Part shown: positions 28,401-60,867 of the stretch, in pieces | Numbering within the stretch: the stretch's first letter is position 1 | Layout: every line of letters starts with the position of its first letter | DNA from: Brachyhypopomus gauderio | Lineage: Eukaryota; Chordata; Actinopteri; Gymnotiformes; Hypopomidae | Assembly (NCBI RefSeq): GCF_052324685.1 | Contig: NC_135228.1 | Location: 9,651,386 to 9,715,385, forward strand | Direction: 5' to 3' | Length of the DNA stretch: 64,000 nt | Notes under the pieces: model-generated | The model's input: the letters and a program-made list of their open reading frames with translations, nothing else | Told to the model about the DNA's origin: nothing | The model's database searches: none | Translations under genes and position numbers: made by a program

Positions 28401-28418
28401 TTCAGCTTTCATCACAAA

Positions 28419-28436
28419 TGGTGTCAGAAGTGGGAT
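28419..28436 (+). other. Relic retrotransposon primer-binding site (tRNA-Leu type), unit A
   Basis: TGGTGTCAGAAGTGGGAT is the exact reverse complement of the 3' end of vertebrate tRNA-Leu(CAA) with its CCA, as I recall that tRNA. It sits where a leader would begin, after 'tttcatcacaaa'. The same site is at 62428-62445 in unit B. No gag or pol follows, so it would mark a mostly deleted LTR element. Confidence 0.5.
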
Positions 28437-37201: not shown

Positions 37202-37497
37202 TGTCACGGTGAGGCGGCCCCCTACCGGCCGCCTCCGTCCACAGCGGCTGTTGTTGTTGTTGTTTTGTGACGTTATGTGCGTCCCTCAGGTGGGCGGAGC
37301 CCGTGATCCGTCTCACCTGAGGGTCATTTGTTTGCCTATATATGTCTTGTCTTTGCACCAGTTGACCGCTGGTCATTAAATCCTTAATTTGGATCTTTTG
37401 CACGGGTTTTGGTTTGCACACTTTCTATTAAACCATCCTTTTTCCCTGAGACTTGGCGTGATCGCTTCCTTTTCAGTTGCTCACCCCGCCCGTCACA
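37202..37497 (+). mobile_element. LTR (TGTCACGG family), copy 3, at the left edge of unit B
   Basis: This copy is complete to both ends but its flanks do not match (TAAACA before, CGTAAG after). Unlike copies 1 and 2 it therefore has no target duplication. Homology to unit A begins immediately after it, so it probably lies on a rearrangement junction. Confidence 0.8.
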
Positions 37498-39666: not shown

Positions 39667-39673
39667 TATAAAG
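39667..39673 (+). promoter_or_regulatory. Candidate TATA box of gene 3
   Basis: TATAAAG lies 201 bases upstream of the gene 3 start codon, the same spacing as in gene 2. The flanking 5' region is nearly identical between the copies, so both may have started with the same promoter. Confidence 0.3.
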
Positions 39674-39867
39674 ATTGGACACACTGAAAAACAACATTGC
39701 GTTATTTCTTTTTAATGTACAGCTTGTACAAGCGTGGTGCAGTTTATTGCCACCGCATAAAAACTCAAAGCAGTAGCCCCCACCCCTCCACCTCATCATA
39801 AAACGACGACCTTTGTGTGGTAGTCTCACTTCCTTGCCGGTTTTTTAAAAGTTCCCATCCATTTGCA

Positions 39868-41267
39868 ATGCACGCTTCAAAATATGATGAAAACACCGCG
39901 TTTCTCGGAGACTGGGGGACATTTCAAAAGACTGTATTCTTTCTTTTGTGCTCCAGCATTATCCCGAATGGGTTTACCGCTTTATCTATTGTTTTCATCG
40001 GCGATACACCGGCTCATCACTGCCACATTCCTGCAAGCGTAAACATCACTGTTGAATGGAGAAACGTTTCGATCCCTGTTGAAGTGGACGGCGGGCATAC
40101 GCGGATTAGTAAATGCTCTCGATATAAACTAGACGTGATAAAAGGTTATTCAGACAAAGGCTTGATCCCATGGGTTGATGTGAATGTATCTGCATTAGAA
40201 CAAGAGAGCTGTGAGGATGGGTGGGATTACGATCGGGAAAAGTATGTGTCGACAATCGTTACTGAGGTATGTTATGTGGGATGCTGTGGGCTTTTGTGAT
40301 TGTAATTATCAAAACACTTCAATTTACTTGTACTGTGTATATTAGTTGCTGTGTACGGGTGACAGCTGAATTAATCAGCGTTTTATTGCTTTTATTTACG
40401 ACATGTTTACAATCTACGATTTACAAGACAGGGGTGGGTTTCCCGAAACGTTCGTAACTCTAAGTACTTCGTAACCTCGTACTTACGAATATTCTTAAAT
40501 TTACGAGTGTTTCCCGAAACTCTTCGTAACTTACGTCGTTCTTATAGTCGTTCGTAAGTTAAGAATCTCCGGACCTATTCGTAACTCACTAAGTACTTCT
40601 TAACTCGAAGCTCTCGTGCAGTTCTACTTCAAAAATGATAGAGGCGCTAATTTCACTCGCGCGGGTTTTAATCACGGCATTACTACCTTTGCGTTTATGT
40701 GTATAATTAGCCTAGTAGCCTATTTTCTTTTGAAGTATTTACATCGCATATACCACAATGTGTCAACAGAAATCAAATGTACTACTTTGAATTATTTAGC
40801 ATTAGTTTATATCTTCCTAATATTTAATTAAGTCTCTCCGTTAGTCATCGTGCAGTCAACAGCGTTTCAGACTCAAAATTAATGTATTCTTTGCAAAGAA
40901 ATGGATACAAGTTGGCCTATTAAGCTTGTTTTAACTTAACCAATAAAATGGATTGATTAATCGGTAGCACATATAAGTAACTTGGATTAAGGCTAGCAAT
41001 TGTGCTTGTGTGATGAACATAGCAGCTCTTCAGAGTACTGGCTTTGAATAGAAGACATAATTTAAGAAGACGACGTAATCCACGAAGCCATGTAGTTCGC
41101 CTGAATACAGAATTTTGCCCTTAGCTCCACGACGCAGTTACTGACCGCCCTCCGATTTTATGCCACAGACTGTTCTGCAGACTGTTGGTGATGCCCACGG
41201 ACTAAGCAAAGCTGACATAAATGTGTGCATGCTGTTACTAAAACATTGCTTCGCCATGCAGCAAAAA

Positions 41268-41347
<80 letters not shown>

Positions 41348-44300
41348 CTGACAGTGGGTATCCACTCTGAAGCTTGTATCAAATCCCCTGGTGTCCTTTC
41401 AGTAGCTGTGGGGCCCATTATCCCCAGTGCCTTCTCCTCCTCAACAGTGAAGGCACTTGTGGACATTTGACCTCCACCAGTCTTAGCCCTCTCCTTTCTG
41501 AGTCCTGCCCCCTTATTTTTGACTTGACTACATTTTTTTTTTTGTTTTTTTTTTCTGAATTTGATGAACTTCCTCGAGCTATTGAAAACAGTAGGCTATA
41601 CTTTTGTTTTTGGCTCAGTTCACTCGACAGAACGTTTCATTTTCTCTGCTTGTTTGCCATGGTTTTGAATAACGTGTGAAAGGTTAATTGTGTGCCCTAT
41701 TTATAGCCTTGATAAAAGCCTACGATCGGTCACAATTGCAAAGGTTTTTGCAATTTTCCTTATACTTGAAATGTCAACACTTATTAGTTGTTAGTTTTTA
41801 TGATTGTCATTTTGCCAATGATGCTTTTGCGGCGTAATTATGAAAAAATGTATGTAAATCGGTGGTTCGGTTTTCGACTAGCGGAGATTTTCCAGTGCAG
41901 CTGCAGAGGCGGAGTCAACTAAGAACTACTTAGAACTCGTTCGTAAATTTGGAGACTACGAAGGCTTTTGGGAAACACTCGTAAATTTGGCGTTCTTAAA
42001 GTTACGTCGTTCTTAAAGTTGTTCGTAACTTTTTAAGATCGTTCGTTATCGGGAAACCCACCCCAGTTCGTTTGTAATGCTTCCTCCGTTAACTCCGCCC
42101 CAATGACTGTATATAAAAGGTAAAATAATATTACAGTTCAAGGTGAACGGTACATTTATATGCTCTTTAGCCGTCCGATCACACGTTTATAGTCATTTGG
42201 CTAAAAATCTAAACCCTTGAGGAGCATGATGTTTTGACACATAACACATTGATATATACTGCCAATGCTTTGTGGGGATTCACAGTGATGCTAGTTGTGG
42301 TGGTCAAGTTGTTGACAACCCAAATGATTGCAGATAAGATGACTCCTGAGGTGGAAGTGTGGTATTACAATATAATGAATGTGCATTTCTTCTGAACATT
42401 AAAGTACGACTGTGTTATTTTGATGTTTGCTGCCGGACAGTGGGATTTGGTGTGCTCAGATGACTGGAAAACACCTTTGACCTCATCTCTCTACTTCTGT
42501 GGTTTGTTTCTTGGATCCTTCATCTCTGGACAACTGTCTGACAGGTGGTACCTTTGAAACCTCTTCACACTTTATTACAAAACAAAGAAAGCAACAACAA
42601 TGACAGCAAAATTATTAAAGAAAAACTACAGCCAGGTAAATATTTGATGAATTCAGTACATGTAAAATCAGAAATCGTTCACAAGGGGTATGGACTGAAC
42701 TGAAGACAGATAGAGTCTACAACTTTCAAGTTCCCTTTTCTTAATGAATGTATTGGTGAACAGGGTGCAACAGACCACCCATATTTGCATGATCAAAGTC
42801 AGATGATTCATTGATTGATTGAATTTAAAGATGCCGTATTATGCATATCATCACAATGTTTCATGGCTAAGTCTGGAAAAGCCTTATATTGGTTCTGTAG
42901 TATTTTTATATAAGTTCTCACTCATGTAGTGTACCACACTGTGACTGCAAACATACCAATACCACCTCACACAGGTGAACTTGGTTTCTTTGAGTCTGCT
43001 GCTGGGTGTAACGGTGGCGTACCCGAAGGTAGTGAGGGATCCATACGCAGGTGGAATAACACGTAGCTTTAATCAAACACAAGGACTAAGCAGACCCCGT
43101 AGGGAAGGCAGGCAGCAGTACAAAAAGGGCAAGGCAAAAAGGAGAGTCAAAAAACCAGGCAGAGAGTCAAAAAACCAGGACAGTCCAATAGCAGCAGGCA
43201 GAGGTACAGAAGGGCTAGGCAAACAGGCGTAAGACAAGAGGGCAGAGCAAGGATCGGTAACCAGGAATGCAGACAGGATAGTAAATACGGCTTGGTAATG
43301 CTACACGGGGAGGCAATACTTCGCACTGGTCTGTGTGAGCAGAGTCCTTAAGTAGGGCGTGTATGAGTAGCCGATCAGGTTCAGATGTGCGGATCAATAT
43401 TCAGGTGATGGCGCCCTCTGGCGGTCACGGGCGTGATTGCCATTCCTGACACTGGGTTAAGAAAATTCCCATTAACATTTTATGGTATTAACTTCAATTA
43501 ATTTCAATTGGACAAATTAACGATCATTGTGAAAGTCACTGACATTTTTTTCGTATCTGAAGTGATAATTAGGACAATAAGCTTGCAATTAAATGAGTAG
43601 ATTCTCCTGCTAGTGCCCTTTGCTAATGCACAATGCACATTACCTGGTTTTCTTTAGCTACAGCCTGTAAGGATTTTGACTAGGGGTGGGCATAGATACA
43701 TTTTTTAAATCTAGATTAATCTCACTGAAATCTTGAAATTAATCTAGATTAATCTAGATTAATCTATATTAAAATGGCTCATATCCGTGCTACCCAAGTA
43801 ATGACTAAAAGTCAGTTTTTGAGATAGGGTTTCTTAATACAGAGGGTGCATTAGACCAGGGACTCATCTCCTGTTTCCAAAATGCATCAATGACTGCTTG
43901 AGGAAGCTGTTCTACTTTGATACTTGAAGAAAAAAACATGCTCAATAAAATGTAGGCTACTGGTTTATTCAGTTAAACATGAATTTGTAAGCCTACATAC
44001 TGTACATTAAAAGGGGTTGATAACATGTTTATTCAGCTAAACACGATATTTGAAATGTAAGCCAACATTTAGTACATTTAACCTCACGGACGTAATTTGG
44101 GGGGGACTTTTTCAAAAGTCGGTTTTGGTCCTCTGCAGTTTTAACGGTTAAAAATAAAAATTTAAATAGCAACGAATCTAGCGCTAGGACCATGCAGAAA
44201 ACGACCGCTCCGAGCTCCGCTCCGGTAACATTTTACGTTCCTAAAAATGAATTTTCCATGAAGCAAACCCATTAACTGTATATATAAGTGGACTGGACGA

Positions 44301-47300
44301 CGCGAGTGAAAAGTGAAGCCTCCATTAGTCAGCTGCTCTCTAGTGGCTGGCTGCAGTACAACTTTTAACCCCGCCCATTCCCATGTAAGTGAACGGGCCG
44401 GACGAGAAACTTTGAATTTTTATTACACGTAAAATAAGTTTTTTGAGCAATTATATGTTGTCAATTCTATAACACCCCATTGCGTTAGTATCTCGCCCAG
44501 TGTTTTTCTCTATGATAAACAGATTTTATAGAAGTTATTAAGTGTTATTTAAAGGGGTGTGGCGATAAGGTGATTGACAGTTAATAGCTGCGTTGGTTGA
44601 CATCTAATACCAGATGCTCAAATGTGAACGCGCTCAACATCAAAGCTCTCGACAGCAAAACTCTCGACAGCAGTATTAAAACCTTTTACGTTTGTTTATT
44701 TTGTAAAACGTCAAAAGCTTCTATACTGGTGGGCATATCCTAACGAATGTCGGGGCGGAGATACAGTCTCTGGCAGAGATACTGTCCTGCCAACCGGTTC
44801 TAATGCGCATGCTCTGGCTCCAATTTTCAAGATGGCAGCGTCCGTACGGCCATCTTGGTGGCTTCAAAAACTCAGAATGGGAGTCAACGGTGACGTACCG
44901 TCCATTATATATACAGTCAATGAGCAAACCTGGCGACTTCGTGGCTGCATCCATGTAAACACACGAATGATTTGTAATTCACATGTTTGAAAACTCGTTC
45001 TCGCCCCTACTTTGCATTTTGGTTAGGAATACAGCCGAGTCAAACTATCAAGTTGAAAGTCATCATAGTTTGCTTACCCATTTTGACCCAGTTCCCAACC
45101 CAAATTTAAGAATAGATTAACGGCGATAATTTTTATATTGCCCGATAAGAGTATCAAATTAACGAATGCTGTTAACGGCGTTAACGGCCCACCACTAATT
45201 TTGACACATTTATGCAAAACATGCTTATGGATTAAAGATGGGAAATGCATTCTAAATTTGTATACATATTCACACAAAAACAAACAAAAAAACATCAGGA
45301 AAGTGAACTTCCAATGAAAAAGTGAACTTCCAATGATCCTAAATAGATGTAATAAACCACTCCCTTTTAGAGACACTAAGGGGACAAAGTCCTAAGCATG
45401 AAAAAATATTTTGAATGAATGAATGAATGAATGTTCAACTTATATAGCGCATTTCTAGATACCCAAGGTCGCTTTACAATTTTAACACAGGTACAACTTT
45501 TAAACTACGAATCACACACCGGTGAGAAGCGGCAGCCAATTGCGCACAGCATACTGTCTACCAGGATCCACAGCCCCCTGGGGAACTGAATGGGGTGCAG
45601 GAAGTGGGGAGAGAGGACAGACCCTCTCTCCACCACTGGGCATACAAGCACACACACATTCATGCACAGACACTCAGACAACTGCTTTTATTGAACATGA
45701 AGACACACAGACATACCCAGGGAGAATTCTATCAGGGAATCCTAATTTACCTAACATCTAACATGTCTTTGGACTTTTGAAAAACAAAACACAAAAATGT
45801 ATTCATGATATACATTGATGATACTAAGATGCTGCTTAGCTGCATAGGTTACACTCAGGGTACTTGTCAATGATTTTTGGATTCCACAGTAGAACAGAGG
45901 CTCATCATAGTCCTACCATGGAAGTCAAGAAAGATGTTAAAGGCTGACTTCAGCAGTAACAAATCACTCAGCATGTTCAAAGTACTCAAAGAGACCTTTG
46001 TACATTTCCCAAGAACTGTCTTGAGAATTTTGAGAGAGTTGAGAGATATCAAGATCAAATTATTTGACATGGAATTTCCTAGCCAAACTCACAACTGCAC
46101 AGGGAAAAACATTATCAATAATAATAATTAAAAAAAACTTATTGACTTTAAAAAATTCCTGTTCTACCAATACAGTATAAAAACTAATTCTAGTAAAATC
46201 CTGGTAAAATGCTGTCTTCTGGTGATGTGCTTACATGATCTATTACAGTTCAGTAAGAAAGAATTGATTAGAAAAACGTACTACTATAGTTCAGATAGTT
46301 AACCAGGTTGCATTGAGTTTCTTTTGACTCTATTTCTATTTGACACTATAAATAGGTTTCTATGTAGAACAAATACATGTATCTCTTAAAGGCTACATGT
46401 TTGTACAAGAGGCTTTGATTTTTATTGATACATCATTTTGTCAAAATACTTATTTTCCATGTTTGTCTAAGCAATGACCAACCTTATTTTCAGAGAATTC
46501 TTAAGTTAAATTTCTTCCATGATTGATAGTCCACAAGCCTAATACTGGATGGAAAAGATTACCTGGGAAAGTGGTAATGGTGGTTTAGCATGGTGGTGCA
46601 TGCTATTTACACAATTTACACTTGCAGACCCAACCCCCCCCCCAATCTCACTCCAAGTGATCTTGAAAAGTTGCCAACCCTGAAAATGTCAAAAATATTT
46701 TAAATAAAATATGCCTGCCTGAAAATATAAAAACTATTTGCCCCTCAACAGCAAAAAAATGATAAATTAAAGTAAGGTTCAAGTAATGGGGTTTAAAAAG
46801 CAAACAACAACAAAAAATGTTTATCCCTCACCCTCAACAATGCGCACTGGTCTCATATCAAGCGCAACAAACACCGCTATTTTTTATTATTTATTTTCTG
46901 TGAAAGTGGTGGTCTCAAATCAATTTTTGTTTGCGTTAATCTCGGGGCCGCTGGTGCTGCAGACATGCTGGCTGAGCTGTAAACATGAATCTGCGGGTGT
47001 AACTGTCAGAAAAAAGACACATAAATGTTCAGATGTGTTTTATTCGATGCCCGCATTGACAAACGGCTGAACTTTTTTTTTTTTTTCGCCTTACCCGTTT
47101 TAAATGGCATGCCATGTTGGTTGTTGTCATGTGAAATTAAAGGCGTTGATGGCATAAGTTGCACTTTACTTTGTTTGATTTATCTTTATCTTTTTCAAAA
47201 TACTCCCACACAAGTTTTTTTAGTAGCCATTATAATCTTGGCAGATGCTGACTATCCTGTAGCATGTTCAGCTCCGCTCACTTGGATTGTACAACTGCAG

Positions 47301-50300
47301 GGTGTGATTTATTAATGTGTAGTAAGGAAGATGCCTATTGTTAATGCGCACACATCATTTAAAAATATTTATTAACAAAAATTAGGATGATTTTATTTGA
47401 CAAAAGGCTATATATAACGAAAACAAAGACATTTCATGTAACAACTAATTCTTAGCAGCATCCTTGGGCACCCCCATGCAGTCAGAATGATACATTCGAC
47501 TATGATGTTCATAGTCGAGTAGGGGTCCTTCAGTCGAATAGTCGAATCAGCGACTATTGCAGGTCGCCCCTAGAAAGCATACAAAAGTCCTCACCTAGGA
47601 TCACAATAAGGCTAAGTAAAATTTCTACAGTCTAAGGGCACAACTCTAAAATGGTATGATTATGATTTCTGATATGTCAGAAATAGAAATTGTTCATAAA
47701 CCATGTCATGGGGTTTGGTTTTATAGATGAGGTCATAGGTTGAGGTGCACATGTAGTAGCAAATGTTAATAAACATATGTAACGCTCACCGCGTCACACA
47801 GCGCCAATTATAATAGTTTGGACTACGCCACCCTCAACTAGAGGGAAACTAATCAGTAACGTTTCACCCGCGCAAGATTACTGCCAGCGAAAATAAAATT
47901 GTTGGACTGCAGAGACTGAGATGCAGATCATTTATTATACAAAATATAAAACACCGGACATTCTTAAAAAGAAGCACCGTGCGGTACAGCCACAGACTTT
48001 CCGGAGCAGCTACCTAACACAGGTTACCTCACTTCCACCAGCGGGGGTTGGCGCGCACCTAAAAGAATAAAGCAAACAAACCACTCAATACACAAATAAC
48101 CCACACCACACGTTCGCGTGAACGCGCTCCAAATAAACTCAAATTCACTGCAAATAAACCCCCAAATAGGTAGGTGCCGCCAACACCTCACTCGTTCTGC
48201 TCCCACCTTTCTCCAACCGTACCGCCGGGCTAAAAATAAAAAACACAACAGTAAATCACGTTCCACAAAACACGTCTGCCACTAACAAACTCCAATTCCT
48301 ATAAAGAAAATTAAAGGGGAGAAAACAGTGGTCTAGCTCTCACGCGCACTCTGATGGCTCCTGTAGGAAGGAACACACTTTAACTAAGACGAACATCATT
48401 TAAAAACATTGCCTGCGCTCAAGCTCGGCCCTACCGTGCAATAGCTGGAATGACTCAGATCGCCCGTGACTTGGCCACCTCTGCGACCTACAGCACGCGC
48501 ACAAATGCATCAAATTAATTGATTCCAACAACATGGAATATATTTCATTATCATCAGCCTACTTACCACTCGTATGCAGCTCACAACACACCCAGTCAGC
48601 TTCTAAAAAGCCCCGAACAATCTCAAACTCCGAGAATGGGTAAAAGCTCTGGCCACTCAACAACTCTGAGAATGGGTAATAACTCTTGCCACCCGGAAAC
48701 TCCGTGAGAATGGGTAATAACTCTTGCCACCCAGAAACTCCGTGAGGATGGGTAATAACTCTTGCCACCCAGAAACTCCGTGAGGATGGGTAATAACTCT
48801 TGCCACCCAGAAACTCCGTGAGAATGGGTAATAACTCTTGCCACCCGGACCCGAGCGCGTCTCTCGTCCCGTCAATCAGCTTCCGAGCTAACGAGAACAC
48901 ACGAGAGTTTAAATACCCTTCGTGATGTGCACTAATTCACTATGGGCGGTGCCCTTAATTAAACCGGGCTGTATTTTCAGGCACACTCTGTAACGGAGTC
49001 TTCCTGTTACATCTACCCCCCTCATACAATAAATCACTGTCCCAGTGATTTCCCCACTCACTCCCAGGGTCTATGCAGCACTGGTCTCGTTTCTAGTGGA
49101 GGGTGAACTAACAGCCTTGATGATGTCGCCACTGAGCGTGGGAGGTTAAAAGGGTTGGAATGCTGACCTGCAGTCACTCTGGACGTCCTCCTCACATCCC
49201 CTGGATTTACTCCTACAGGGATGGACTCACCCTCCTGATACTCCAGCCGCCTATTAGATGCAGAGCCTGACTGGTGTGGTTCAATCCACAAACCGATATC
49301 CCCCTCATCTTCACTCTCCAGCGGCGATTCGCTCTTATCCTCGCTCTGACCTACTAGGTCCACTCCTGGTACAACCAAATGCTGGCCAGGAACTTCCCGC
49401 AACTCAGCCCGATGTACATTTCTATCGGGGCCTGTTCCCTCCTCTGGGCGAATAGTGTAAACCCTGCCCCCACTATCCAGGCACTGAACCACCCTGTACC
49501 TAACCCCATCCCAATGGTCTTGAATCTTATTTCGCCCTTGCACATGATTACGCCGGTAAACCAGGGTGCCAGCTGGGAGAATGTGTACAGCCTGGGGTTG
49601 AGACCTCTGGGCTCTCGCATCGGCGGCAGCCTCCATATTTCGTTTAGCATGACTAAAAGCGCTTTCCAGGAATGCCTGTTGCCCTCTGATCCATTCACCA
49701 ACCGACCCTTCCACCATCTCCTCCTCAGCCTGTCCCAACAGAAAGTCAACAGGTAAATGTGGCTTCTGACCAAACAACAACTCGTACGGGGAATACCCTG
49801 TGGACTGATGAACAGTGGTATTGTAAGCAAACAGAAGATGGGAAAGATGTAAAGGCCACCTCTTCTTCTGCTCTGGGGGAAGAGAGCGCAACAAGTCATG
49901 CATGGTCCTGTTAAACCTCTCACATTGCCCATTTCCAGCTGGATGGTAAGGAGTTGTCCGACTCTTTTCTACCCCATACAGTCGGCAGAGACTCTTCAAC
50001 AATTCCCCCTCGAAATTTCGACCTTGATCCGAATGGATCCGTTTGGGCACGCCATACTTGTAGAACCACCGCTCAACCAGAACCTTAGCCACGGTACTGG
50101 CTCTCTGGTCTGGAGTTGGATAGGCCTGTGTGAACTTTGAAAACACATCCGTTATTACCAAAACATTCTCTCTCCCATCACTGGAACGTTCCAAGACAGT
50201 GAAATCTATGGCAACTATGTCTAATGGCCGGGAAGCACTGAGCCGCCCCATGAACGTGCGTACCTTTGGTTGTACGGCCTTAGCAACCACACAACGTGAG

Positions 50301-53300
50301 CACTCCTGGCACCATCGGGCAATATCCTTCCGCATAAAGGGCCAATAACACCGTTGTCGGATCAAATTAGTGGTTCGCTCCGTACCCTGATGCCCATGAT
50401 CATCATGAAGGGCAACCAACACCTCCCTCTGTAACACCTCAGGTAACAGCAGTTGCAAAATTTCCTCCCCTCCGTCTGGCGAATGTACAACCCTATACAA
50501 GACCCCAGCTTCCTCCCGTATTCTTTTCCACTGCTTAACCAATTCCACTACCGCAGGGGACTGCATGGCACGCTCTTCGACAGTGGGAGGTCTACCTCGG
50601 GTCCAATAGATAGTGAAGTCCCTGATCACTGGATCAGTGGCCTGAAGAGCCTGTAGCTCAGGCCTAGAACGAACAGGGAGCACATCAATCGCCGCCACTT
50701 GTGTCGATACTGGCTGCTCTAGCACCGCTGCCTCAACTAATTCAGGAACCACCACACCCGGAACTATTTCCTGAACCGAGTCGACAGATGGAACTGGCAT
50801 ACGAGACAGAGCGTCCGCATTCCCATTCTTAATGCCAGGACGGTACTTGAGCACAAAATCAAAACCAGCAAGCTGGGAAGCCCACCGCTGTTCCACCGCT
50901 CCCAGCTTAGCGGTCTGCAAATAACTTAATGGGTTGTTATCAGTAAATACCGTAAACTTGGCGCCTAACAAGTACTCACGGAACTTTTCCGTCACGGCCC
51001 ACTTCAACCCCAACAGTTCCAATTTCAGAGCACTATAGTTGGACATGTTTTGCTCTGCCGGATGTAACCCTCGACTCGCATAAGCGATGGGCTTACGCTG
51101 ACCTCCCTGATCTTGAGACAGCACTGCCCCCAACCCGTTATGGCTAGCATCAATCTCCAGGACGAAAGGCTTAGAGAAATCAGCATAGCCAAGGACTGGG
51201 GCTGCCACCAATGCCTGCTTCAAGAAAAGGAAAGCTTCTTCGCAAGCTCCAGTCCAATGCCCTCCCACAGCACAGGACCTGGTCCTTTTCTGGCCACCCT
51301 GCAGAGTAGCAACCAATCGGTGTAATGGGGCAGCATGGCGGGCAAATCCGTTGACAAACCTTCGATAATATGAGGCGAAACCTAAAAAAGATCGGAGCTC
51401 CTTCACAGTCTGGGGCCGCGCCCAGTCAGCCACCACCTGGATTTTATCTGGGTCAGTTGACACCCCCTCCGCAGAGATCACATGTCCCAAATACCGAACC
51501 TCTGTCTGAAAAAAATGACACTTGTCAAATTTTAACTTCAACTGGTGATGTTGCAGCCGCTCAAACACCAACTCCAAACGTTGCAGATGATCCTCAAAAG
51601 AAGAAGAAAACACCACGATATCATCCAGATATAACAGCAATGACTGAAATCTTTCATCCCCGAAGATGCGCTCCATGAGCCGTTGGAAGGTACTGGGGGC
51701 ATTACATAACCCAAAAGGCATGCGATTAAATTCGAACAACCCAAAGGGAGTACAGAACGCAGTCTTTTGCTTATCTCCCTCCGCCATAGGGACCTGATTG
51801 TAACCGCTAGCCAAATCCAGAGTAGTAAACAACTTGGCTCCCGAGAGTGCATCTAGCGACTCTTCTATACGCGGCAAGGGATAGGCATCTTTCCGGGTTT
51901 TCACGTTCAGCTGTCTATAGTCTACACAGAGACGGATTGACCCGTCCTTTTTCTGAACCACCACAATAGGCGACGAATAGGGACTACAACTAGGCCGCAC
52001 CACCCCTTTTGCTAGAAGCTCTGTAATGTGGGCCTTCACCAACTCATACTGCGTAGGCGGGAGACGTCGATACCGCTGCCGAACAGGGACCTCATCCAGC
52101 AAAGGAATTTCATGCTGGATCAAATCAGTACACCCCAATGCACCATCTTGGCTAAACACTTGTCGATACTTGTGCAATAATGCCGAAGCCGCCTGTTCTT
52201 GTTGCACTGTTAAAGAAGGCCAGGAACAGGCCTGAAAGTTGGTCGATCCACAATCGGCCTGTACAGAGCGAACGGTTGCCACGCGTTCTACAACTGACAC
52301 TTCCTCATCAAATGCAACACTCGAACCATCACATGGCGCATCAACCAAAAACAACTCACCCAAACCCGTACGAGAAGGGAGCCAGACATCCTGTTCGGCC
52401 ACATTAACTACCGGCACAAAGCTGATCCCTCCCTGTACAGGGAGGAGAGCACGAGACACCAGCAATCCCGCAGGCAAAACATCACTTGTAGGTTCAAATA
52501 ACACTGGGTCCACCACAGAGCCGCCAGTAACTCCACAGGTAACAGCCACAGCCTTAATAGAGCCCGCTGGAATCAGCACAGCCACCCTCCCCTTTACCCT
52601 AGCCCGGCCTAAACGACCCGAAGGGGGCAACTGATTTAGAAATTGACAATGGCTGAATACCCGTTTCCAAGCGGATCTCTCTGGGGCTATGTGTGCAGAC
52701 TGAAACAGAGCAACACCTTGGGACTGGAACAACTCTCTGTAACACTCACTAATCACGTTCATGCCCAAAAGTCCAGGCAACCCCACACTCACGGCTCCAG
52801 GCTCTAAGCAAACAGACTCTTTAACCACCAAAATTCCCATGCCACATAAGGTTTTGCCCAGCACCGTAAGATCCAATTCGATGTACCCCACATAAGGAAT
52901 CTCAAGGCCATTAGCGGCTTTCAACTGAAGCCAGTTACACTGCTGTAGAACCATTGTAGAACTCTGAAAATGTTTTCTGAAAAACCCCTCAGTGATTGTA
53001 GAGACCATGGAGCCTGTATCAAGCAAACACTTAACACTCACTCCTCCCATTTGAACCTCTACTGTGGGGCAGGTGCCGATAAGGGCACCCAACAGCTTTG
53101 AGGTCACCACAGAGCCCTCAATACCCTTACCTAGTGTATGGCTCTCTACACCAGAGGGAACTAGTTTCCCTGTGCCTCAGGCACGGCTGCCGCTCCCTGA
53201 ACCCCTGAGCCGAGGGCTAATCCCCGGCGGCCCCTCCCTGAATAAGGCCTAGGCCCACCATTACAAAACCTAGCAATATGGCCGGGCTGATCACAACGGG

Positions 53301-56300
53301 AACAGATTGGTCTACCATCTGCCTGGAACCGATGAGGTTGCGGTGAAACTGAGGGCACTTCCAGTCGTTCGCGTGCCCTAACCCCAGACCCCAGGTGCTC
53401 CAAAATCAAATCAAGTTGCTTCTGTTGTTTCTGTAAGGTTTCTTTTAATGCAATTAACTCGCCTGCCGAAGCACCGAGACCTACCTGACTACAACCCCCA
53501 CGCACCTCCACCTGAGTGTCACATGAGTAAGCCCGTGCCCTTGGAGTCGCCGCATGATCCCCTTCCTCAACCCAACGAATGGCCTCACTCCGTATGTCCA
53601 AAAAGGACATATCAGGGTTAGACCGAATGGACCTCTTGAGTTCCCTACGTAGCATCCCATCTCGCACGTGTTCCACAAACTGATCTCGAACCAGCAAATC
53701 TGAATTTGGAATAACACGATCATTTTTACATTTAATCACAGCCATCAGTGACAGTAGAGCATGGGAATACTCACGCAGGGACTCACCTTCCAGCTGACGT
53801 CGCTGAAAAAACTGCTGCTGTAAAACCACATACGATTGGGAATGGCTAAAAACCTCCTTTAAAATAACAAATATACGCTCTGGATCTTTCCGCTCCACCT
53901 CAGAGCGAAATCTAATCTCTGCTTTCGCCTCCCCATCCAAATGATCATATAAAAACAGAGCCTGCTCTGCACTAGTCATACGGCGAACCTCCATGGACCT
54001 ACGCGCTTCCTCAATCCAATCATCAACCCATAACAAATCGGATGATTTTCCCGAAAACCTGGGGCACTTCCGCTCTCGTGGCACATAAACAAAACGATCA
54101 ACAGCCTGTTCTAATGCAGCACCTGCTACATTACTACTAGAAGGTGACCCAGCAGCACGTAGTCTCTCATTATCAGCTTGTAGCTGCTGAACTTGTTCTC
54201 TCAGCTCTCTGAGCTGCTGATCCATATTTAAAACCCAATTTACACTCTAAAACAAAGATGTCTTCGTCCACGTCGTCTTGCGGATCCTCTTCCGGAGCCA
54301 ACCACTGTTTTTCTCCCCCTTGTTACTAACAATAAACAAACACCCAAAAAACTCAATCTGCACGTCAGCCTTTTAATCCTGCCGACTACGCCAAAATGTA
54401 ACGCTCACCGCGTCACACAGCGCCAATTATAATAGTTTGGACTACGCCACCCTCAACTAGAGGGAAACTAATCAGTAACGTTTCACCCGCGCAAGATTAC
54501 TGCCAGCGAAAATAAAATTGTTGGACTGCAGAGACTGAGATGCAGATCATTTATTATACAAAATATAAAACACCGGACATTCTTAAAAAGAAGCACCGTG
54601 CGGTACAGCCACAGACTTTCCGGAGCAGCTACCTAACACAGGTTACCTCACTTCCACCAGCGGGGGTTGGCGCGCACCTAAAAGAATAAAGCAAACAAAC
54701 CACTCAATACACAAATAACCCACACCACACGTTCGCGTGAACGCGCTCCAAATAAACTCAAATTCACTGCAAATAAACCCCCAAATAGGTAGGTGCCGCC
54801 AACACCTCACTCGTTCTGCTCCCACCTTTCTCCAACCGTACCGCCGGGCTAAAAATAAAAAACACAACAGTAAATCACGTTCCACAAAACACGTCTGCCA
54901 CTAACAAACTCCAATTCCTATAAAGAAAATTAAAGGGGAGAAAACAGTGGTCTAGCTCTCACGCGCACTCTGATGGCTCCTGTAGGAAGGAACACACTTT
55001 AACTAAGACGAACATCATTTAAAAACATTGCCTGCGCTCAAGCTCGGCCCTACCGTGCAATAGCTGGAATGACTCAGATCGCCCGTGACTTGGCCACCTC
55101 TGCGACCTACAGCACGCGCACAAATGCATCAAATTAATTGATTCCAACAACATGGAATATATTTCATTATCATCAGCCTACTTACCACTCGTATGCAGCT
55201 CACAACACACCCAGTCAGCTTCTAAAAAGCCCCGAACAATCTCAAACTCCGAGAATGGGTAAAAGCTCTGGCCACTCAACAACTCTGAGAATGGGTAATA
55301 ACTCTTGCCACCCGGAAACTCCGTGAGAATGGGTAATAACTCTTGCCACCCAGAAACTCCGTGAGGATGGGTAATAACTCTTGCCACCCAGAAACTCCGT
55401 GAGGATGGGTAATAACTCTTGCCACCCAGAAACTCCGTGAGAATGGGTAATAACTCTTGCCACCCGGACCCGAGCGCGTCTCTCGTCCCGTCAATCAGCT
55501 TCCGAGCTAACGAGAACACACGAGAGTTTAAATACCCTTCGTGATGTGCACTAATTCACTATGGGCGGTGCCCTTAATTAAACCGGGCTGTATTTTCAGG
55601 CACACTCTGTAACGGAGTCTTCCTGTTACACATACAATTTACAAGATCAAGTTAAACTTTATACAATGACAAGGAGTAATTACAAGGCAGATGTATTCAC
55701 TGAGAATAGAGATTTATTAACGGCAAATCCATAGTCAGAGTTGTTTCAGTGGTCCAAAGTCAGATTAGCAACAAAATATGTCCAGATCACATAATGAGGC
55801 TACATAATGGGCATGTAGTATCATAAAACCAGTCTTGAACAAAACATGACTGTCACGGTACGGTGGCCCCCTACTGGTCGCCCCCGTCTACAGCAGCAGC
55901 TTGTCCTGTGGGTGTGGCGTTGTGTTCGTCCCTCGGGTGGGCGGAGCCCGCGATCCGTCTCACCTGAGGGTCGTTTGTTCGTCTATATATGTCTTGTCTT
56001 TGTACCAGTTGACCGCTGGTTATTATATCCTTAATTCGGATCAGTTCACGGGTTTTGGTTTGCGCACTTTACATATTAAACCATCCTATTTCCCTGAGAC
56101 TTGGCGTGATCGCTTCCATTTATTTTCGCTCACCCTACCCGTCACAGAATAACCAGCCACTTTCGGAAGCCGCCAGTCTCCTTTGCTTTTTCCTTCGTTC
56201 GTGGTCATGTCTCGTGGTAAGTGTTTGTCTGCGTGGTGTTTTGTTTGAAGAGCTCCGCCGTGCTTTTGTGTTGTGTGTGTGTGTAGCACGGCGAGGACCA

Positions 56301-59300
56301 GGGCAGTCTGCCCTGAGACAGCTCTTCATGTCCGTTGTTTGTCTGTCTGAAGAGTTTCGCCGTGCGTTTGTTTTGTGTGTTGCACGGCGAGGACCAGGGC
56401 GTCTTCCCTGTATACTCTTCATGTTTTGTGTGGGTGAAGTGTACGTGTGAATGGGCGTGTGGACCAGTGTGCGTGCTCGTGGTGTTATATGTTTAGTGTT
56501 TCGTGTGTGACGCGGGTGCCGCTCGTCACTGTCGCCTCGCTCCCCTGTCGTCTTGTGTTTTGTGTGGGGGAGCGACTGCGAACCTGAGCGGCACGTCACA
56601 AAATTACCGAGCGCGCATGTAAGAGTCCCGTTCGTTCATTGTTTGTACACTGTTCATTGTTTTTTGTTTGTCTAGTCTTTGCATGTGTGTGTTGTTCTCG
56701 CGTGTTTGTGGTTTTGTTGCTTGTAATTCCACGCATGCTCCTATATACACAGGGACTATATACACAAGATAACAAGTTAGAAGGAACAGGTGAAAACAAT
56801 AAGGGGTGGAGAACTGAATGAGAGGCGTTACCTAATGAAACCAAAACAAAGAACTAAAAACTAGGAAGTAAAAACCAAACCACAGGTAACCAAATAAAGG
56901 AGAGGGACAAGTGTGAGATAAATATACAAATTTGAAGGAATAAGCTTTCATGTTATTCAAGTTTATTTATTTAAGATGTCTTTGACATTTTACCATTTTA
57001 TTTTCACATACAGGTTTGGAAGAAAAATTGTGCTATTTCTAACTATGGCAGTTCAGACGATATTTACCCTCATTCAAGTCTTCTCTCCATCTTGGGTTAT
57101 ATTCTGCTCCCTCTTCTTTATCGTTGGGATTGGACAAATGTCAAGCTATGTGACTGCATTTGTTTTAGGTAGGTATGTGCTGATGTGGGTTGTTCTAGAC
57201 TTTAATATGAATTATGTTATTGTATACAATATGTATACACTTTTATGTATAATTGTATAATATGTATTTTCAAGTGAAAGAATGAATATTATGGAATGCT
57301 TACTACTGAAAGCAATCAAACTCTTAATGCTGTAACAATAAGACTCAAATGTAGGGATCAAATTAATGCAGAAAAATATTGTTTTTGCCTAAAAAAATGA
57401 TTGTGTTTACACAGTAATTCTGATCAAAGCTGTTGCTGACGTAACAACTTAATTTTTCACAAGGTATGGAAATTCTGAGCCTGTCGGTTCGCATCATCTA
57501 CTCAACCATTGGGGTGTGCATTTTTTTCTCTATTGGCTACATGGTGCTACCATTAGTGGCGTACTTCATTAGAGATTGGAGGATGCTACTTCTGGCCATT
57601 GCTCTACCTGGCTTCCTTTATATCCCACTTTGGTGGTAGGTGTGTGCCATATACTATACTAATACCATGAAGAATATGTAATTACCATGTGTGTGAGAAA
57701 TTGTTCATACTTACTTGTTAAAATAATGCTACTGTCAATAAGACATGACATAAGTTTGCTTGATTAATCTGGACCTAGTTAGTGAAACTATTAATTCTGA
57801 GCTCGTTGATATTTGGCGTGACAGGTTCGTTCCAGAATCTCCAAGATGGCTGCTGTCTCGGGGTCGAATAGAAGAGGCTGAAGCCATACTACAGGATGCT
57901 GCCAGGAAAAATGGGATCAAAGCGCCTGATGTCATTTTTCCACCACCACAGGTACAGCGCTTGTGAAAAAACCTCTCAGGTACATAACATTATTAGTTGG
58001 ACAGAACTCTTTAAAGCAAGGAATCCACTTTGATTAACATGCAGCTGAGTGTGGCTCAGATGATATACTGTAAATACAAAACATAACAAAAATATCAGTA
58101 AATCACTATTGTACGATAACAAAATGTGTTCAGGTATTTATTTTTTTTACCAAAACATTACTTTGGGGAGGGTGGTAGGAGGTAATGTGTTCCTAAACCT
58201 CTGACAGAGAGTGTAATACCTAGTGACATCAGTGATATTGGTGTCATATCCTGTGTCTTGTGTCTGTGTATTCATTAACATACAGAAAAATAAACCATAA
58301 AACTACATAAAGCTATTGGTAAACGCTGCATATAGATATGGTTCATTAGAGAGGAACTAGAAATGATCTTGTTGCTTCCTCTCCTCAGCAAGCACATTCC
58401 TGGTGTGTCTTGCACTATTGAGGAACGAAATAACCAGCAATAAGATAAGCTGACTCCCCATGCTGATAGACTACCTTAAATACATAATGTGCTAAAATAG
58501 AATTAAAAAAAATAATAGCACAGGTTCATAGAATGATCTAGACTTTCAAAAAACTTTGTAATTGTTATTTCATAGTTTAGTGGACATATATAATTTTGTC
58601 CTAGACTAAATGACACATTGTATTCTTTCTTGGCATTATTTTCGTCTTAAGGGTTGTGTAGAGCTTTAAGTACATCTTAAAGAAATGAGAAAATAAAGAC
58701 ACATTCTAAATGCTCCACTTAAGCAAAATGAAAAATATCTTGTGTTTATCTGCAGTGCTTTGTTAGCTGTGGCCGTCATATGGTGCCTTGTTTGGCCTTG
58801 TGTTTTGCTTTTTTGATCTTCTAGTAGGGGCTCTCTGTAGTGTACTAAAACATACTTTGTTGTCACATGTGCCCCATAGGCTGGAGACAAGGAAGCAAGG
58901 GCGAAGTCCTACAACCTCTGTGATCTGGTTAGATCCAGCAACATCCGGGCCATTACCATCCTGCTGTGTCTGGTCTGGTGAGTGTCCATCTGTGCACTGC
59001 ATCGCTAACAAATAAAAGCCCAGCTGTCACACGCAACTGATGTGAATGTGTAACCCTTTGGTGGCAATGTGACCAGACTAGAAAGAATGAATTTGTAGTG
59101 TTTTTGAACAACATTCTAGAGCAGAAAAGTTTTCTCATAGGTCTTTTTCTCCAAGATAGAAAACCCATTGCATTTTTAATGAGTTGGCTCGGGTCAATAT
59201 ATTTGGTACAAAAGGCACGTGTAGTTTTCATTCCCTGTAAATGCAGAGATTTATATTTATGGATTTAGGGATTTAATATTACTCATATAATTAATATTAC

Positions 59301-60867
59301 TTAATATCTTTTACTTAATATCTCATGCTTGCATCTTGTTATTGTGCACCACTGTGAAAAATGCTGTGTAGTAGGTTTGCAAATTGTGAAATTTACACTT
59401 CCCTTATCTCCTTACATTTATCAAAAATATATTCATATGTTATACAACTGAATGTGACAGCCTTTTTAACCCATAAACATAAGGCTTTTAAGGCTAATTG
59501 CAACAGGCTTTGATTGTTTTATCCTTCTCCTAGGACAACCCTCTCTATAGGATACTTTGCACTGTCACTAAACACGTCCAACATGCATGGGAACTCCTAC
59601 TTGAATTGCTTCTTCTCAGCAGCTGTGGAAGTGCCAGCCTATATCATGTCCTGGCTCATGTTTCGCTACTTGCCCAGACGGTTGTGTCTCTTCTCCACCC
59701 TTTCTCTGGGTGGCACTGTGCTGCTCTTCGTACACTTTATACCCCAGCGTGAGAAGTGTTAAGATCCTATCAACTATGTATAGCTGTTGCAGAAACTACA
59801 AAGTCGTTGTGACTTGTTTGCTCATCTTTGGATTATCATATGAAAGAAACTGAGATTTCTCATAAGTCATGAATTTTAATGAGCAGAGAACTTAATGAAT
59901 TCATGAGGGCTACACTCTTTATCCATCTTTATCCTCATTCCATACAAGATGACCTCTGCATTTGAATAAACTTATAGCCACGAGTGATGTCTTCAATGGC
60001 ATTTGTCACGACATTTCGATTACACATTTCGTCTTTTGTTGTCACAGACCTGAGCTATGTGGCCATTTTACTGGAGATGCTGGGCAAGTTTGGCGTCACT
60101 ATAGCCTTTGCAATCATATATGCTTTCACTGCCGAGCTGTACCCCACCATCTTGAGGAACACGGCTATGGGAGCCTGCTCCATGGCCTCACGGGTTGGCA
60201 GCATATCTGCTCCCTACTTCATATATCTGGGTCAGTAGCCCCTCTTTTTGATTCAGTAATCATTATCACTCACAACTTATGTTTAAACTTTACTCTAGGC
60301 AGAAATCAGTATTATAGCAATGAAAGACAATATAATGGGAATGTGTTGTACGTGACAAAATAATCCAGATCACATTGGTTTATTGACTTCTTTGTCTCAC
60401 CTTCACAGGAGGCTATTACAGAGCCCTGCCGTACATTCTAATGGGCAGCTTAAATATTTTTACTGGGTTGCTTAGTCTCCTGCTTCCAGAGAGCATCGGT
60501 ATGCCTCTTCCTGAGACCATGAGTCACATGCAGAAAGTTACTGGGTAAGCCTTCTGCTCCAAGGGTCCAGCACCCTCTGTTGTTCAGTTATGTGTGATCA
60601 CTTATTGGCACATGGTCTTTGATGACACTTCTGAACAGAGGAATAAATGCAAGCTTAACTACCGTATTTAACTATCATTAGTTATATACTGCAATTTAGT
60701 AAGAGTCAACCTTCAAAAGGGAACCAGTGAGTTGACAGTGTCTGAATTTGTATTTCCTTTTATTATTTTTAAATTTCTTTCATTTGTCTTTCAGGTTTAA
60801 AAAAAGACAAATGACTTACAACCTTGATCATTCCAAAGGTGACCAAGAATGTGTTTCTCTTTCCTAA
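39868..60867 (+). CDS. slc22a5-like: OCTN-type organic cation/carnitine transporter, gene 3 (ten coding exons)
   Basis: Coding exons are 39868-40266, 42441-42544, 57014-57168, 57464-57635, 57825-57951, 58880-58977, 59534-59748, 60048-60230, 60409-60544 and 60795-60867: 1662 bases and 553 residues, with every exon the same length as in gene 2 and all splice signals kept. The protein differs from gene 2 at 14 positions, including F-to-Y and V-to-L in helix 2, four changes within nine residues of helix 4 ([15 protein letters not shown] against [15 protein letters not shown]), and two around the PESPRW block. Motifs STIVTEWDLVC, GQLSDRFGRK and [10 protein letters not shown] are unchanged. Intron 1 (2.2 kb) and intron 2 (14.5 kb) are enlarged by transposons, including an antisense Gypsy element. 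The frame is open throughout, so it may be functional; correct splicing of the long intron 2 is an inference. Confidence 0.93.
40432..42063. mobile_element. Harbinger-like transposon relic with CAG target duplication
   Basis: It is in gene 3 intron 1. The termini GGGTGGGTTTCCCG and CGGGAAACCCACCC are inverse repeats with CAG on both sides; gene 2 has the empty site at about 18712. The plus strand at about 41140-41260 reads, across frameshifts, LTALRFYAT then [13 protein letters not shown], a block typical of HARBI1-like transposases. On the minus strand at 41466-41340 an open frame starts [19 protein letters not shown], possibly part of the second Harbinger gene (Myb/SANT-like). A (TA)n tract interrupts it. 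It is not an active element. Confidence 0.75.
41270..41346. repeat. (TA)n microsatellite
   Basis: About 38 uninterrupted TA repeats lie inside the Harbinger relic of gene 3 intron 1. Such a tract is expected to vary in length between individuals and to be prone to assembly error. Confidence 0.97.
43007..43451 (-). mobile_element. Solo LTR with CTGGG target duplication, in gene 3 intron 2
   Basis: The sequence begins TGTAACGGTGG and ends ATTCCTGACA on the plus strand, flanked by CTGGG (43002-43006 and 43452-43456). Gene 2 has CAGGG at the same place with no insert. In the minus direction it begins TGTCAGGAATGGC, a common fish LTR start, so minus orientation is likely. Length is 445 bases. Confidence 0.85.
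43681..45197. mobile_element. hAT element (TAGTGGTGGG family), copy 2, inverted, with nested MITE
   Basis: It is bounded by TAGGGGTGGGCATAGAT and GGCCCACCACTA with ATTTTGAC duplicated on both sides (43673-43680 and 45198-45205). Gene 2 has the empty site at about 19855. It is the reverse orientation of the copy at 37647-38673. It holds a second insertion at 44270-44922. Confidence 0.9.
44270..44922. mobile_element. Nested hAT-type MITE with AGCAAACC target duplication
   Basis: Its ends, CATTAACTGTATATATAA and TTATATATACAGTCAATG, are inverse repeats. AGCAAACC occurs on both sides (44262-44269 and 44923-44930), while the related element at 37647 has a single AGCAAACC at that place on the opposite strand. 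That shows a clean insertion into the older hAT copy. Confidence 0.88.
45411..45775 (+). repeat. Interspersed fish repeat in gene 3 intron 2
   Basis: This is the unit B counterpart of 20077-20425, with the same (GAAT)n head, 'agcgcatttctagatacccaagg' body and 'catgtctttggact' end, and a few small insertions. Confidence 0.55.
47778..49011 (-). repeat. 3' LTR of the Gypsy element
   Basis: This 1234-base LTR matches 54397-55630 at every position I compared, including all open frames within it. On the minus strand GGTATTTAAACTC (about 48917-48905) is a likely TATA box, and an AATAAA lies near 47940. Confidence 0.95.
48625..48847. repeat. 38-bp tandem repeats inside the 3' LTR
   Basis: GGGTAATAACTCTTGCCACC recurs with GGG at 48674, 48712, 48750, 48788 and 48826, an exact 38-base period, plus a diverged 36-base unit at 48638. 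The array lies downstream of the presumed LTR TATA box in element orientation, so it would be in the transcribed R/U5 part. Confidence 0.92.
49012..49023 (-). other. Polypurine tract of the Gypsy element
   Basis: GAGGGGGGTAGA on the minus strand directly abuts the 3' LTR, the position required for plus-strand DNA priming. Confidence 0.85.
49058..53164 (-). CDS. pol: Gypsy pol polyprotein (PR-RT-RNase H-integrase)
   Basis: The pol frame is open from 53176 to the stop at 49058; CTA at 53164 is the first codon read after the predicted frameshift. Numbering from the GTG at 53110 (1350 residues): aspartic protease DTGS at 31-34; reverse transcriptase with [11 protein letters not shown] (D432) and YLDD at 494-497; RNase H with DAS (D654) and TDNNP (D724); integrase zinc finger H902/H907 to C934/C937; integrase triad D969, D1028, E1064 with the standard 35-residue D-E spacing; then a GPY/F-like C-terminal module (WDGVRYRVV). 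I see no chromodomain. All catalytic residues are present and no stop interrupts it. It has no start codon of its own and is expected only as a Gag-Pol fusion. Confidence 0.96.
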   Translation of the reverse strand, partial: LVPSGVESHTLGKGIEGSVVTSKLLGALIGTCPTVEVQMGGVSVKCLLDTGSMVSTITEGFFRKHFQSSTMVLQQCNWLQLKAANGLEIPYVGYIELDLTVLGKTLCGMGILVVKESVCLEPGAVSVGLPGLLGMNVISECYRELFQSQGVALFQSAHIAPERSAWKRVFSHCQFLNQLPPSGRLGRARVKGRVAVLIPAGSIKAVAVTCGVTGGSVVDPVLFEPTSDVLPAGLLVSRALLPVQGGISFVPVVNVAEQDVWLPSRTGLGELFLVDAPCDGSSVAFDEEVSVVERVATVRSVQADCGSTNFQACSWPSLTVQQEQAASALLHKYRQVFSQDGALGCTDLIQHEIPLLDEVPVRQRYRRLPPTQYELVKAHITELLAKGVVRPSCSPYSSPIVVVQKKDGSIRLCVDYRQLNVKTRKDAYPLPRIEESLDALSGAKLFTTLDLASGYNQVPMAEGDKQKTAFCTPFGLFEFNRMPFGLCNAPSTFQRLMERIFGDERFQSLLLYLDDIVVFSSSFEDHLQRLELVFERLQHHQLKLKFDKCHFFQTEVRYLGHVISAEGVSTDPDKIQVVADWARPQTVKELRSFLGFASYYRRFVNGFARHAAPLHRLVATLQGGQKRTRSCAVGGHWTGACEEAFLFLKQALVAAPVLGYADFSKPFVLEIDASHNGLGAVLSQDQGGQRKPIAYASRGLHPAEQNMSNYSALKLELLGLKWAVTEKFREYLLGAKFTVFTDNNPLSYLQTAKLGAVEQRWASQLAGFDFVLKYRPGIKNGNADALSRMPVPSVDSVQEIVPGVVVPELVEAAVLEQPVSTQVAAIDVLPVRSRPELQALQATDPVIRDFTIYWTRGRPPTVEERAMQSPAVVELVKQWKRIREEAGVLYRVVHSPDGGEEILQLLLPEVLQREVLVALHDDHGHQGTERTTNLIRQRCYWPFMRKDIARWCQECSRCVVAKAVQPKVRTFMGRLSASRPLDIVAIDFTVLERSSDGRENVLVITDVFSKFTQAYPTPDQRASTVAKVLVERWFYKYGVPKRIHSDQGRNFEGELLKSLCRLYGVEKSRTTPYHPAGNGQCERFNRTMHDLLRSLPPEQKKRWPLHLSHLLFAYNTTVHQSTGYSPYELLFGQKPHLPVDFLLGQAEEEMVEGSVGEWIRGQQAFLESAFSHAKRNMEAAADARAQRSQPQAVHILPAGTLVYRRNHVQGRNKIQDHWDGVRYRVVQCLDSGGRVYTIRPEEGTGPDRNVHRAELREVPGQHLVVPGVDLVGQSEDKSESPLESEDEGDIGLWIEPHQSGSASNRRLEYQEGESIPVGVNPGDVRRTSRVTAGQHSNPFNLPRSVATSSRLLVHPPLETRPVLHRPWE
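53111..53170 (-). promoter_or_regulatory. -1 programmed frameshift signal: GGGAAAC slippery site and predicted pseudoknot
   Basis: In the gag frame the last codons read CAG GGA AAC TAG. The heptamer GGGAAAC (53170-53164) has the X-XXY-YYZ form, and a one-base slip back gives GGG AAA CTA, exactly the pol frame. After a 9-base spacer, CTGGTGTA (53154-53147) pairs with TACACTAG (53138-53131, one G-U). The 8-base loop contains AGAGCC (53145-53140), which pairs with GGCTCT (53116-53111), giving an H-type pseudoknot. The slip site is direct; the fold is inferred. Confidence 0.82.
53161..54225 (-). CDS. gag: Gypsy gag polyprotein
   Basis: The 354-codon frame starts at ATG 54225 and ends in TAG at 53163-53161. 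The N-terminus (about 1-25) is a predicted coiled coil ([19 protein letters not shown]). The middle resembles the Gypsy gag capsid region: [15 protein letters not shown], then [12 protein letters not shown] and [15 protein letters not shown] single CCHC zinc knuckle (C308, C311, H316, C321; [14 protein letters not shown]) lies near the C-terminus and should bind the RNA genome. An RG-rich tail follows. It builds the virus-like particle. The frame is uninterrupted. Confidence 0.93.
   Translation of the reverse strand: MDQQLRELREQVQQLQADNERLRAAGSPSSSNVAGAALEQAVDRFVYVPRERKCPRFSGKSSDLLWVDDWIEEARRSMEVRRMTSAEQALFLYDHLDGEAKAEIRFRSEVERKDPERIFVILKEVFSHSQSYVVLQQQFFQRRQLEGESLREYSHALLSLMAVIKCKNDRVIPNSDLLVRDQFVEHVRDGMLRRELKRSIRSNPDMSFLDIRSEAIRWVEEGDHAATPRARAYSCDTQVEVRGGCSQVGLGASAGELIALKETLQKQQKQLDLILEHLGSGVRARERLEVPSVSPQPHRFQADGRPICSRCDQPGHIARFCNGGPRPYSGRGRRGLALGSGVQGAAAVPEAQGN
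54376..54393 (-). other. Primer-binding site complementary to tRNA-Ser
   Basis: Three bases after the 5' LTR (spacer TTT), the minus strand reads TGGCGTAGTCGGCAGGAT. It is the reverse complement of the 3' end of vertebrate tRNA-Ser(AGA) plus CCA, as I recall that tRNA (ends ATCCTGCCGACTACG). This predicts serine tRNA as the primer. Confidence 0.8.
54397..55630 (-). repeat. 5' LTR of the Gypsy element
   Basis: This copy supplies the element's promoter. TGTAAC...GTTACA ends are intact, and the minus-strand TATTTAA is at about 55535-55525. The 38-base tandem array is repeated here at 55244-55466. Confidence 0.95.
55851..56146 (+). mobile_element. LTR (TGTCACGG family), copy 4, in gene 3 intron 2
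   Basis: This is a complete 296-base LTR joined on its left to intron sequence (AACATGAC) shared with gene 2. On its right is about 600 bases of foreign DNA, not intron sequence, so it is not a simple solo LTR but the left end of a partly deleted element. Confidence 0.8.
56147..56745 (+). mobile_element. Internal remnant next to LTR copy 4, with an internal duplication
   Basis: This DNA replaces about 40 bases of the gene 2 intron. A block of about 90 bases starting GAAGAG(C/T)T(C/T)CGCCGTGC and ending CTCTTCATGT occurs twice in tandem (about 56247-56330 and 56347-56422), each with GCACGGCGAGGACCAGGGC. No gag or pol is visible. It is probably the untranslated leader of the LTR element, truncated on the right. 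Confidence 0.55.
58098..58645. other. Stretch present only in gene 3 intron 5
   Basis: The gene 2 intron passes directly from 'aatatcag' to 'gttgtgtacagc', whereas gene 3 has about 550 extra bases. I see no terminal repeats or target duplication, so deletion from gene 2 is as likely as insertion into gene 3. Confidence 0.5.

Follow-up and report, generated by a model that had tools for sequence, protein, structure and literature searches.

The window, a stretch of 64,000 nucleotides of the Brachyhypopomus gauderio genome, contains three OCTN-like genes (Table 1). Genes 2 and 3 lie on the same 21.5-Mb contig and have an identical layout, with ten exons, a coding sequence of 1662 nt (553 aa) and GT/AG dinucleotides at all nine introns; neither a broken frame nor lost introns or splice sites were found in gene 3, in which 18 of 18 splice dinucleotides are intact. 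It should be noted that the span 39868-60867, under which a preliminary description compared the two genes, is that of gene 3 only, gene 2 being located at 18152-26832. Intron 2 has 14.5 kb in gene 3 versus 4.2 kb in gene 2. The gene 2 protein is identical to B. gauderio P0001, which bears the NCBI name "organic cation/carnitine transporter 2-like" and the precomputed Pfam matches PF00083 and PF07690. Using an incomplete join of gene 2 exons as a query, we found that the best match among solved structures is human OCTN2 (9pdq, E 9.9e-197, 658 bits), followed by OCT2 (253 bits); by sequence match, the pair belongs to the SLC22A4/5 (OCTN) family. Among the best 120 of 2595 homologues, the closest relative outside the genus is Electrophorus electricus SLC22A5 (P0002, 88% identical). 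Genes 2 and 3 are probably recent tandem duplicates of a teleost OCTN2-type (SLC22A5-like) sodium/carnitine cotransporter, with transport as a predicted function; this assignment is one part of the explanation given below, and its probability is that of the explanation as a whole. The view that these are fish OCTN genes, recently duplicated and with both frames intact, had been put forward in the preliminary description and is supported here.

Table 1. Features of the OCTN locus; positions are those of the window unless preceded by L009, L011 or L013.
Feature	Position	Strand	Remarks
Gene 1, older OCTN-like paralogue	5788-14172	-	ten exons, GT/AG junctions; last exon inferred
Duplicated block, gene 2 copy	16956-29573	+	~12.6 kb; self-BLAST; non-coding divergence 2.09%
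Gene 2, OCTN2-like carnitine transporter, CDS	18152-26832	+	open frame of 1662 nt with splice sites; encodes a protein identical to P0001
Gene 2, CDS exons 1-5	18152-18550, 19060-19163, 23398-23552, 23847-24018, 24213-24339	+	
Gene 2, CDS exons 6-10	24861-24958, 25499-25713, 26013-26195, 26374-26509, 26760-26832	+	
Duplicated block, gene 3 copy	38674-63582	+	self-BLAST; enlarged by extra sequence in introns 1, 2 and 5
Gene 3, young paralogue, CDS	39868-60867	+	differs from gene 2 at 15 sites; splice sites kept
Gene 3, CDS exons 1-5	39868-40266, 42441-42544, 57014-57168, 57464-57635, 57825-57951	+	
Gene 3, CDS exons 6-10	58880-58977, 59534-59748, 60048-60230, 60409-60544, 60795-60867	+	
Exon 3 cluster of gene 3 (M207I, I210M, N212S, A215T)	57131-57153	+	gene 2 counterpart 23515-23537
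Codon 212 of gene 3	57144-57146	+	AAC in gene 2, AGC in gene 3 (Asn to Ser); equivalent of human OCTN2 N210
711-bp identical run, gene 3 copy	60814-61524	+	same sequence as 26779-27489 in the gene 2 copy; comprises 3' flank and most of exon 10
Ty3/gypsy LTR retrotransposon	47778-55630	-	lies in gene 3 intron 2, in antisense
LTRs of the retrotransposon	47778-49011 and 54397-55630		1234 bp each, identical
Further OCTN gene downstream of the window	L013:6399-7929, L011:156-392, L009:9248-9676	-	spread over tens of kilobases

The coding sequences of genes 2 and 3 differ at 15 sites, of which 14 are replacements and one is silent (TTA/TTG, Leu99, exon 1); our recount agrees with the preliminary description in these numbers and in their distribution over the ten exons (3, 2, 4, 0, 2, 1, 1, 0, 1 and 1). 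The neutral probability, put there near 0.07, was a fair estimate: the one-sided P for at least 14 replacements out of 15 is 0.045-0.10, depending on the transition weight and treatment. Four of the 15 differences are found in 23 nt of exon 3, within nine residues of TM4 (P 0.009, post hoc). Transversions comprise 11 of the 15 coding differences, compared to 93 of the 202 substituted non-coding columns (P 0.06). At the 5' end of the duplication (16956-19163 versus 38674-42544), transversions are more frequent than transitions (15:9 in the 5' flank and 15:5 in intron 1), whereas intron 2 has the opposite ratio (42:61).

The present approach uses the non-coding divergence within the duplication, of which the preliminary description made no use. 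Counting only columns separated from any gap by more than 5 bp in a BLAST-chain alignment, we obtained a non-coding divergence of 2.09% (202 of 9683 aligned columns), compared to 0.90% (15/1662) for coding DNA (P 6e-4). Mafft alignments were discarded in favor of these counts, since the divergence figures for introns 1, 5 and 6 were inflated by unaligned extra sequence; a non-colinear repeat match (21466-21760) was dropped from the chain. The non-coding divergence is uneven, 2.75% around exons 1-3 versus 0.93% around exons 4-10; therefore, local rates were used. The replacement divergence is 1.15% (14 changes in 1219.6 sites), which is below the non-coding divergence overall and about equal to it around exons 4-10. 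At local rates, 13.5 replacements are expected in exons 1-3 and 6.8 in exons 4-10; the observed numbers are 8 and 6, i.e., 14 versus ~20 in total, and replacements are thus not in excess. For silent changes, 4.6 and 2.5 are expected, and 1 and 0 were observed; the shortage (1 versus ~7) is significant (P 0.007), and the high dN/dS results from it. Chance, conversion tracts and codon constraint are the options for this shortage. With introns as the yardstick, the apparent excess of replacements vanishes, which corrects a tempting dN/dS argument.

The replacements are conservative. Thirteen of the 14 exchanges have a BLOSUM62 score of at least 0, the mean score is +1.21, whereas missense changes at random would average approximately -0.5 (P 2e-5 to 1e-4 in six settings), and one radical exchange was found where 10.5 are expected (P 3e-4). 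Coding indels are absent, although 9.5 would be expected from the 58 events in aligned blocks per 10165 non-coding columns. Purifying selection is visible in both the conservative exchanges and the absence of coding indels, and the earlier claim that the pair is far from purifying selection is not borne out. Positive selection, which had been offered as a natural option, is not supported by replacements that are less frequent than non-coding changes. The argument against simple decay holds, given the open frames, the GT/AG dinucleotides throughout, the conservative exchanges and the lack of coding indels. Thus, the counts of the preliminary description were right and its inference of selection was weak. 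It should be noted that our tests of selection are post hoc and involve small numbers.

We used Electrophorus electricus (P0002) as an outgroup for polarizing the replacements. It has the gene 2 residue at ten sites and the gene 3 residue at three (279, 287 and 514), and the polarity of site 536 is undecided with this outgroup; the ratio of changes derived on gene 3 to those derived on gene 2 is 10:3 for the 13 polarized sites (P 0.09). In exons 1-3, all eight replacements arose on the gene 3 branch (P 0.008). A relic of a further gene 2/3 copy is located just right of the window (L009:46-186 and 1759-2023), with matches to exon 6 (88%) and exon 9 (97%) only; as a putative outgroup, it carries the gene 2 base at site 514, which moves this site to gene 3 and changes the ratio to 11:2 (P 0.02). 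Approximately 10 replacements per branch are expected at the local neutral rate. The gene 3 branch has 11, whereas the gene 2 branch has two (P 0.002, with site 514 placed by the relic) or three (P 0.009, with Electrophorus alone).

Conservation was estimated from 106 fish OCTN sequences taken from the best 120 of 2595 homologues, both electric eels being left out. In this set, a conservation of 93% or more is reached by 205 of 549 columns, and the gene-3-derived sites fall into such columns as often as random columns do (4 of 10), compared to 4 of the 61 electric eel differences from both copies (Fisher P 0.011). The preliminary description had named a pseudogene-like spread of changes as the finding that would speak against it; the gene-3-derived sites do ignore conservation in this way, but the exchanges themselves are conservative.

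The replacement N212S lies at the sodium site. According to the accessible part of PMC12780140, the side chains of N210 and N32 and the carbonyl of S28 bind Na+ in human OCTN2, Q180 contacts N210, and N210A raises the carnitine Km ~11-fold (human numbers, from the alignment, are two lower than those of genes 2 and 3). Gene 2 shares with human OCTN2 all five residues named there, i.e., the ligands S28, N32 and N210 and the coupling residues Q180 and Q207; gene 3 keeps four of them (S30, N34, Q182 and Q209), with Ser at the position of N210. Seven of the eight checked carnitine-site residues (Y211, Y239, Y358, F359, Y387, F443, Y447 and R471) are kept in both copies, which have Phe at the position of human Y239 and Glu at that of D519. 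In the accessible tables of PMC13387816, PMC10763261 and PMC11636536, p.Asn210Ser is listed as P (pathogenic). The accessible portions of these papers and of PMC4982206 were also used for the other sites: p.Val153Leu, which equals V155L, is listed with uncertain significance, M205R (the residue of M207I) as P and F149L (the residue of F151Y) as uncertain, and the portions searched for G36, I208, A213, L368, T123, I277, I285 and F513 have no entry for any of them.

We also compared the sodium site in 108 aligned relatives (520-580 aa, without P0001) out of the best 120 of 2595 homologues. In this alignment, N212 is present in 101 sequences, and among the seven that lack it only P0082 still has Q209; gene 3 thus joins a rare state, in which the ligand is changed and the coupling glutamine is kept. 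Ser is found at 212 in one other teleost protein of this set (P0087), with other site residues changed as well. Only 74 of the 108 sequences keep Q182, Q209, N34 and N212 together; 13 teleost sequences have His at 209 and two have Lys at 212. In another OCTN protein, mouse OCTN3 (Slc22a21), which transports carnitine independently of sodium, the region of sodium coupling is altered, the two coupling glutamines being histidines (accessible part of PMC12780140). One of these two changes is the His at 209 of the 13 teleost sequences, whereas gene 3 keeps both glutamines and has a changed ligand instead. Judging from these alignments, changes in sodium coupling may have occurred more than once among fish.

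The neighboring genes extend this comparison. Gene 1 has Ile, Thr and Leu at the positions of S30, N34 and N212 of gene 2. Nearly all of its 111 aligned relatives (of 117 newly listed) lack the three residues as well, with Thr at the position of N34 in 110 and N212 in one; the Electrophorus relative of gene 1 is P0121 (548 aa, 94% identical). The gene downstream of the window keeps S30, N34, Q182, Q209 and N212. Thus, one local cluster comprises copies without the sodium site (gene 1), with it (gene 2 and the downstream gene) and with a partly changed one (gene 3). The genome search with PF00083, which scored 9 of 202 candidates, does not amount to a census of OCTN genes.

The explanation that we favor, and consider probable, is an asymmetric young pair. 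It starts from the observed anatomy, polarity at most sites, conservation and homology of the sodium site. Gene 2 would be held by purifying selection, stay closer to the ancestral sequence and retain the ancestral job, and gene 3 would still be filtered as an intact membrane protein, free of indels and stops and with conservative exchanges, under weakened constraint. Most replacements would have been gathered by gene 3, including the group of four on TM4 at and near the sodium ligand N212, which is now Ser. N212S is predicted to weaken sodium binding and, because of that, to lower the carnitine affinity, or else to leave transport with little sodium drive; the other sodium-site residues and the carnitine-site residues are equal in both copies. 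We infer a relaxed constraint and not an adaptation; the effect on function is likewise a prediction, namely weaker sodium-coupled carnitine uptake by gene 3. Relaxation does not account for the silent shortage, which counts against this explanation. The three sites at which Electrophorus has the gene 3 residue and the roughly doubled number of conservative replacements on the gene 3 branch (see below) count against it as well. A serine also provides an oxygen and is found at this position in P0087, and this counts against a weakened sodium site.

Gene 3, a young duplicate with ~2% non-coding divergence, bears the same exchange as the human disease variant N210S. The pair is a test case of two proteins with 14 residue differences. 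One of these concerns a sodium ligand that cryo-EM has recently revealed and that is mutated in human carnitine deficiency, and it is this changed ligand that makes a bench test worthwhile. More tentatively, and with odds that we put on the low side, gene 3 may be a natural experiment in which sodium coupling is being dismantled or re-tuned: a transporter of carnitine or cations with weak or no sodium dependence, in which the three TM4 neighbors perhaps compensate, next to a sodium-driven twin that is intact.

Patchwork gene conversion between the tandem copies, which would have homogenized stretches including the 3' end and distorted dN/dS, is compatible with the asymmetric pair; we regard it as a possibility, although somewhat unlikely. 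The 711-bp identical run exceeds the longest one obtained in 5000 shuffles (690), and its non-coding part of 657 bp (26833-27489) agrees with the ~650 bases of the preliminary description; the run may result from a recent conversion event or from constraint on the 3' UTR. The uneven non-coding divergence also points to conversion. However, conversion removes silent and replacement differences alike, and for this reason it cannot produce the 14:1 ratio alone. We also considered whether the exon 3 cluster could have been copied from another paralogue. A search of the assembly with gene 3 exon 3 gave three matches and no donor among them: besides genes 2 and 3 themselves, there is one 70% relative, which has Leu at 207 and the usual residues at 210, 212 and 215.

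That the gene 3 replacements were driven by positive selection toward a different use of substrates or ions, with the TM4 cluster as the adaptive core, seems rather unlikely. The density of the cluster, the hit on a sodium ligand and the variation of sodium-site residues in other teleost OCTNs agree with it. The remaining hint comes from the gene 3 branch, where ten conservative replacements were observed versus ~4.9 expected under neutrality (P 0.03, post hoc, site 514 counted on gene 3), an approximately twofold number that mild positive selection would also give. Conversely, conservative replacements over both branches (13 versus 9.8) show no significant excess (P 0.19), replacements overall stay below the neutral expectation, and the 14:1 ratio hangs on one silent change. 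The chance that 11 random replacements strike at least one of the five site residues is ~10%.

It is improbable that gene 3 is an early, unconstrained pseudogene that is intact by youth alone: the near-neutral replacement rate on its branch, the hits on conserved columns as if at random, and the long intron 2 with a new retrotransposon would fit, but the depletion of radical exchanges and coding indels and the intact splice dinucleotides would not. A loss of constraint on gene 3 that happened only recently is possible. The only possible hints of an assembly or allelic artefact are the 711-bp run and the pair of LTRs, which are long and identical, and the exon 3 search of the assembly gave no sign of one. 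Such an artefact is highly improbable, considering that two copies on one contig have different insertions, 2% non-coding divergence and no further exon 3 match apart from the 70% relative.

The retrotransposon in intron 2 of gene 3 has the features of Ty3/gypsy elements, i.e., paired LTRs with TG..CA ends, a target duplication (4 bp, CATA; the empty site in gene 2 is at 22889-22892) and the order protease, reverse transcriptase, RNase H, integrase; the domains were found in pieces, the order was judged from the positions of the pieces, and the match to a protease is weak, its 20.2 bits falling short of the cut-off of 28.2. The absence of differences between the LTRs places their divergence below ~0.24%, ~12% of that of the duplication, and thus the element is much younger than the gene pair, provided that the LTRs were not made equal by conversion between them or by a collapse in the assembly. 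Each LTR carries a 38-bp tandem array, and the element has open frames of 1372 and 361 codons.

Searches of the window with Rfam (gathering thresholds) and ARAGORN gave no match. Two open frames resemble a Tc1-type transposase (468-1091, minus strand) and the end of a LINE reverse transcriptase (32986-33903, plus strand). A repeat family of ~285-300 bp, which may have helped the duplication, is represented upstream of each duplicated block and within intron 2 of each gene (16481-16765, 21466-21750, 37204-37488 and 55851-56135), and an inverted copy lies at L009:299-595.
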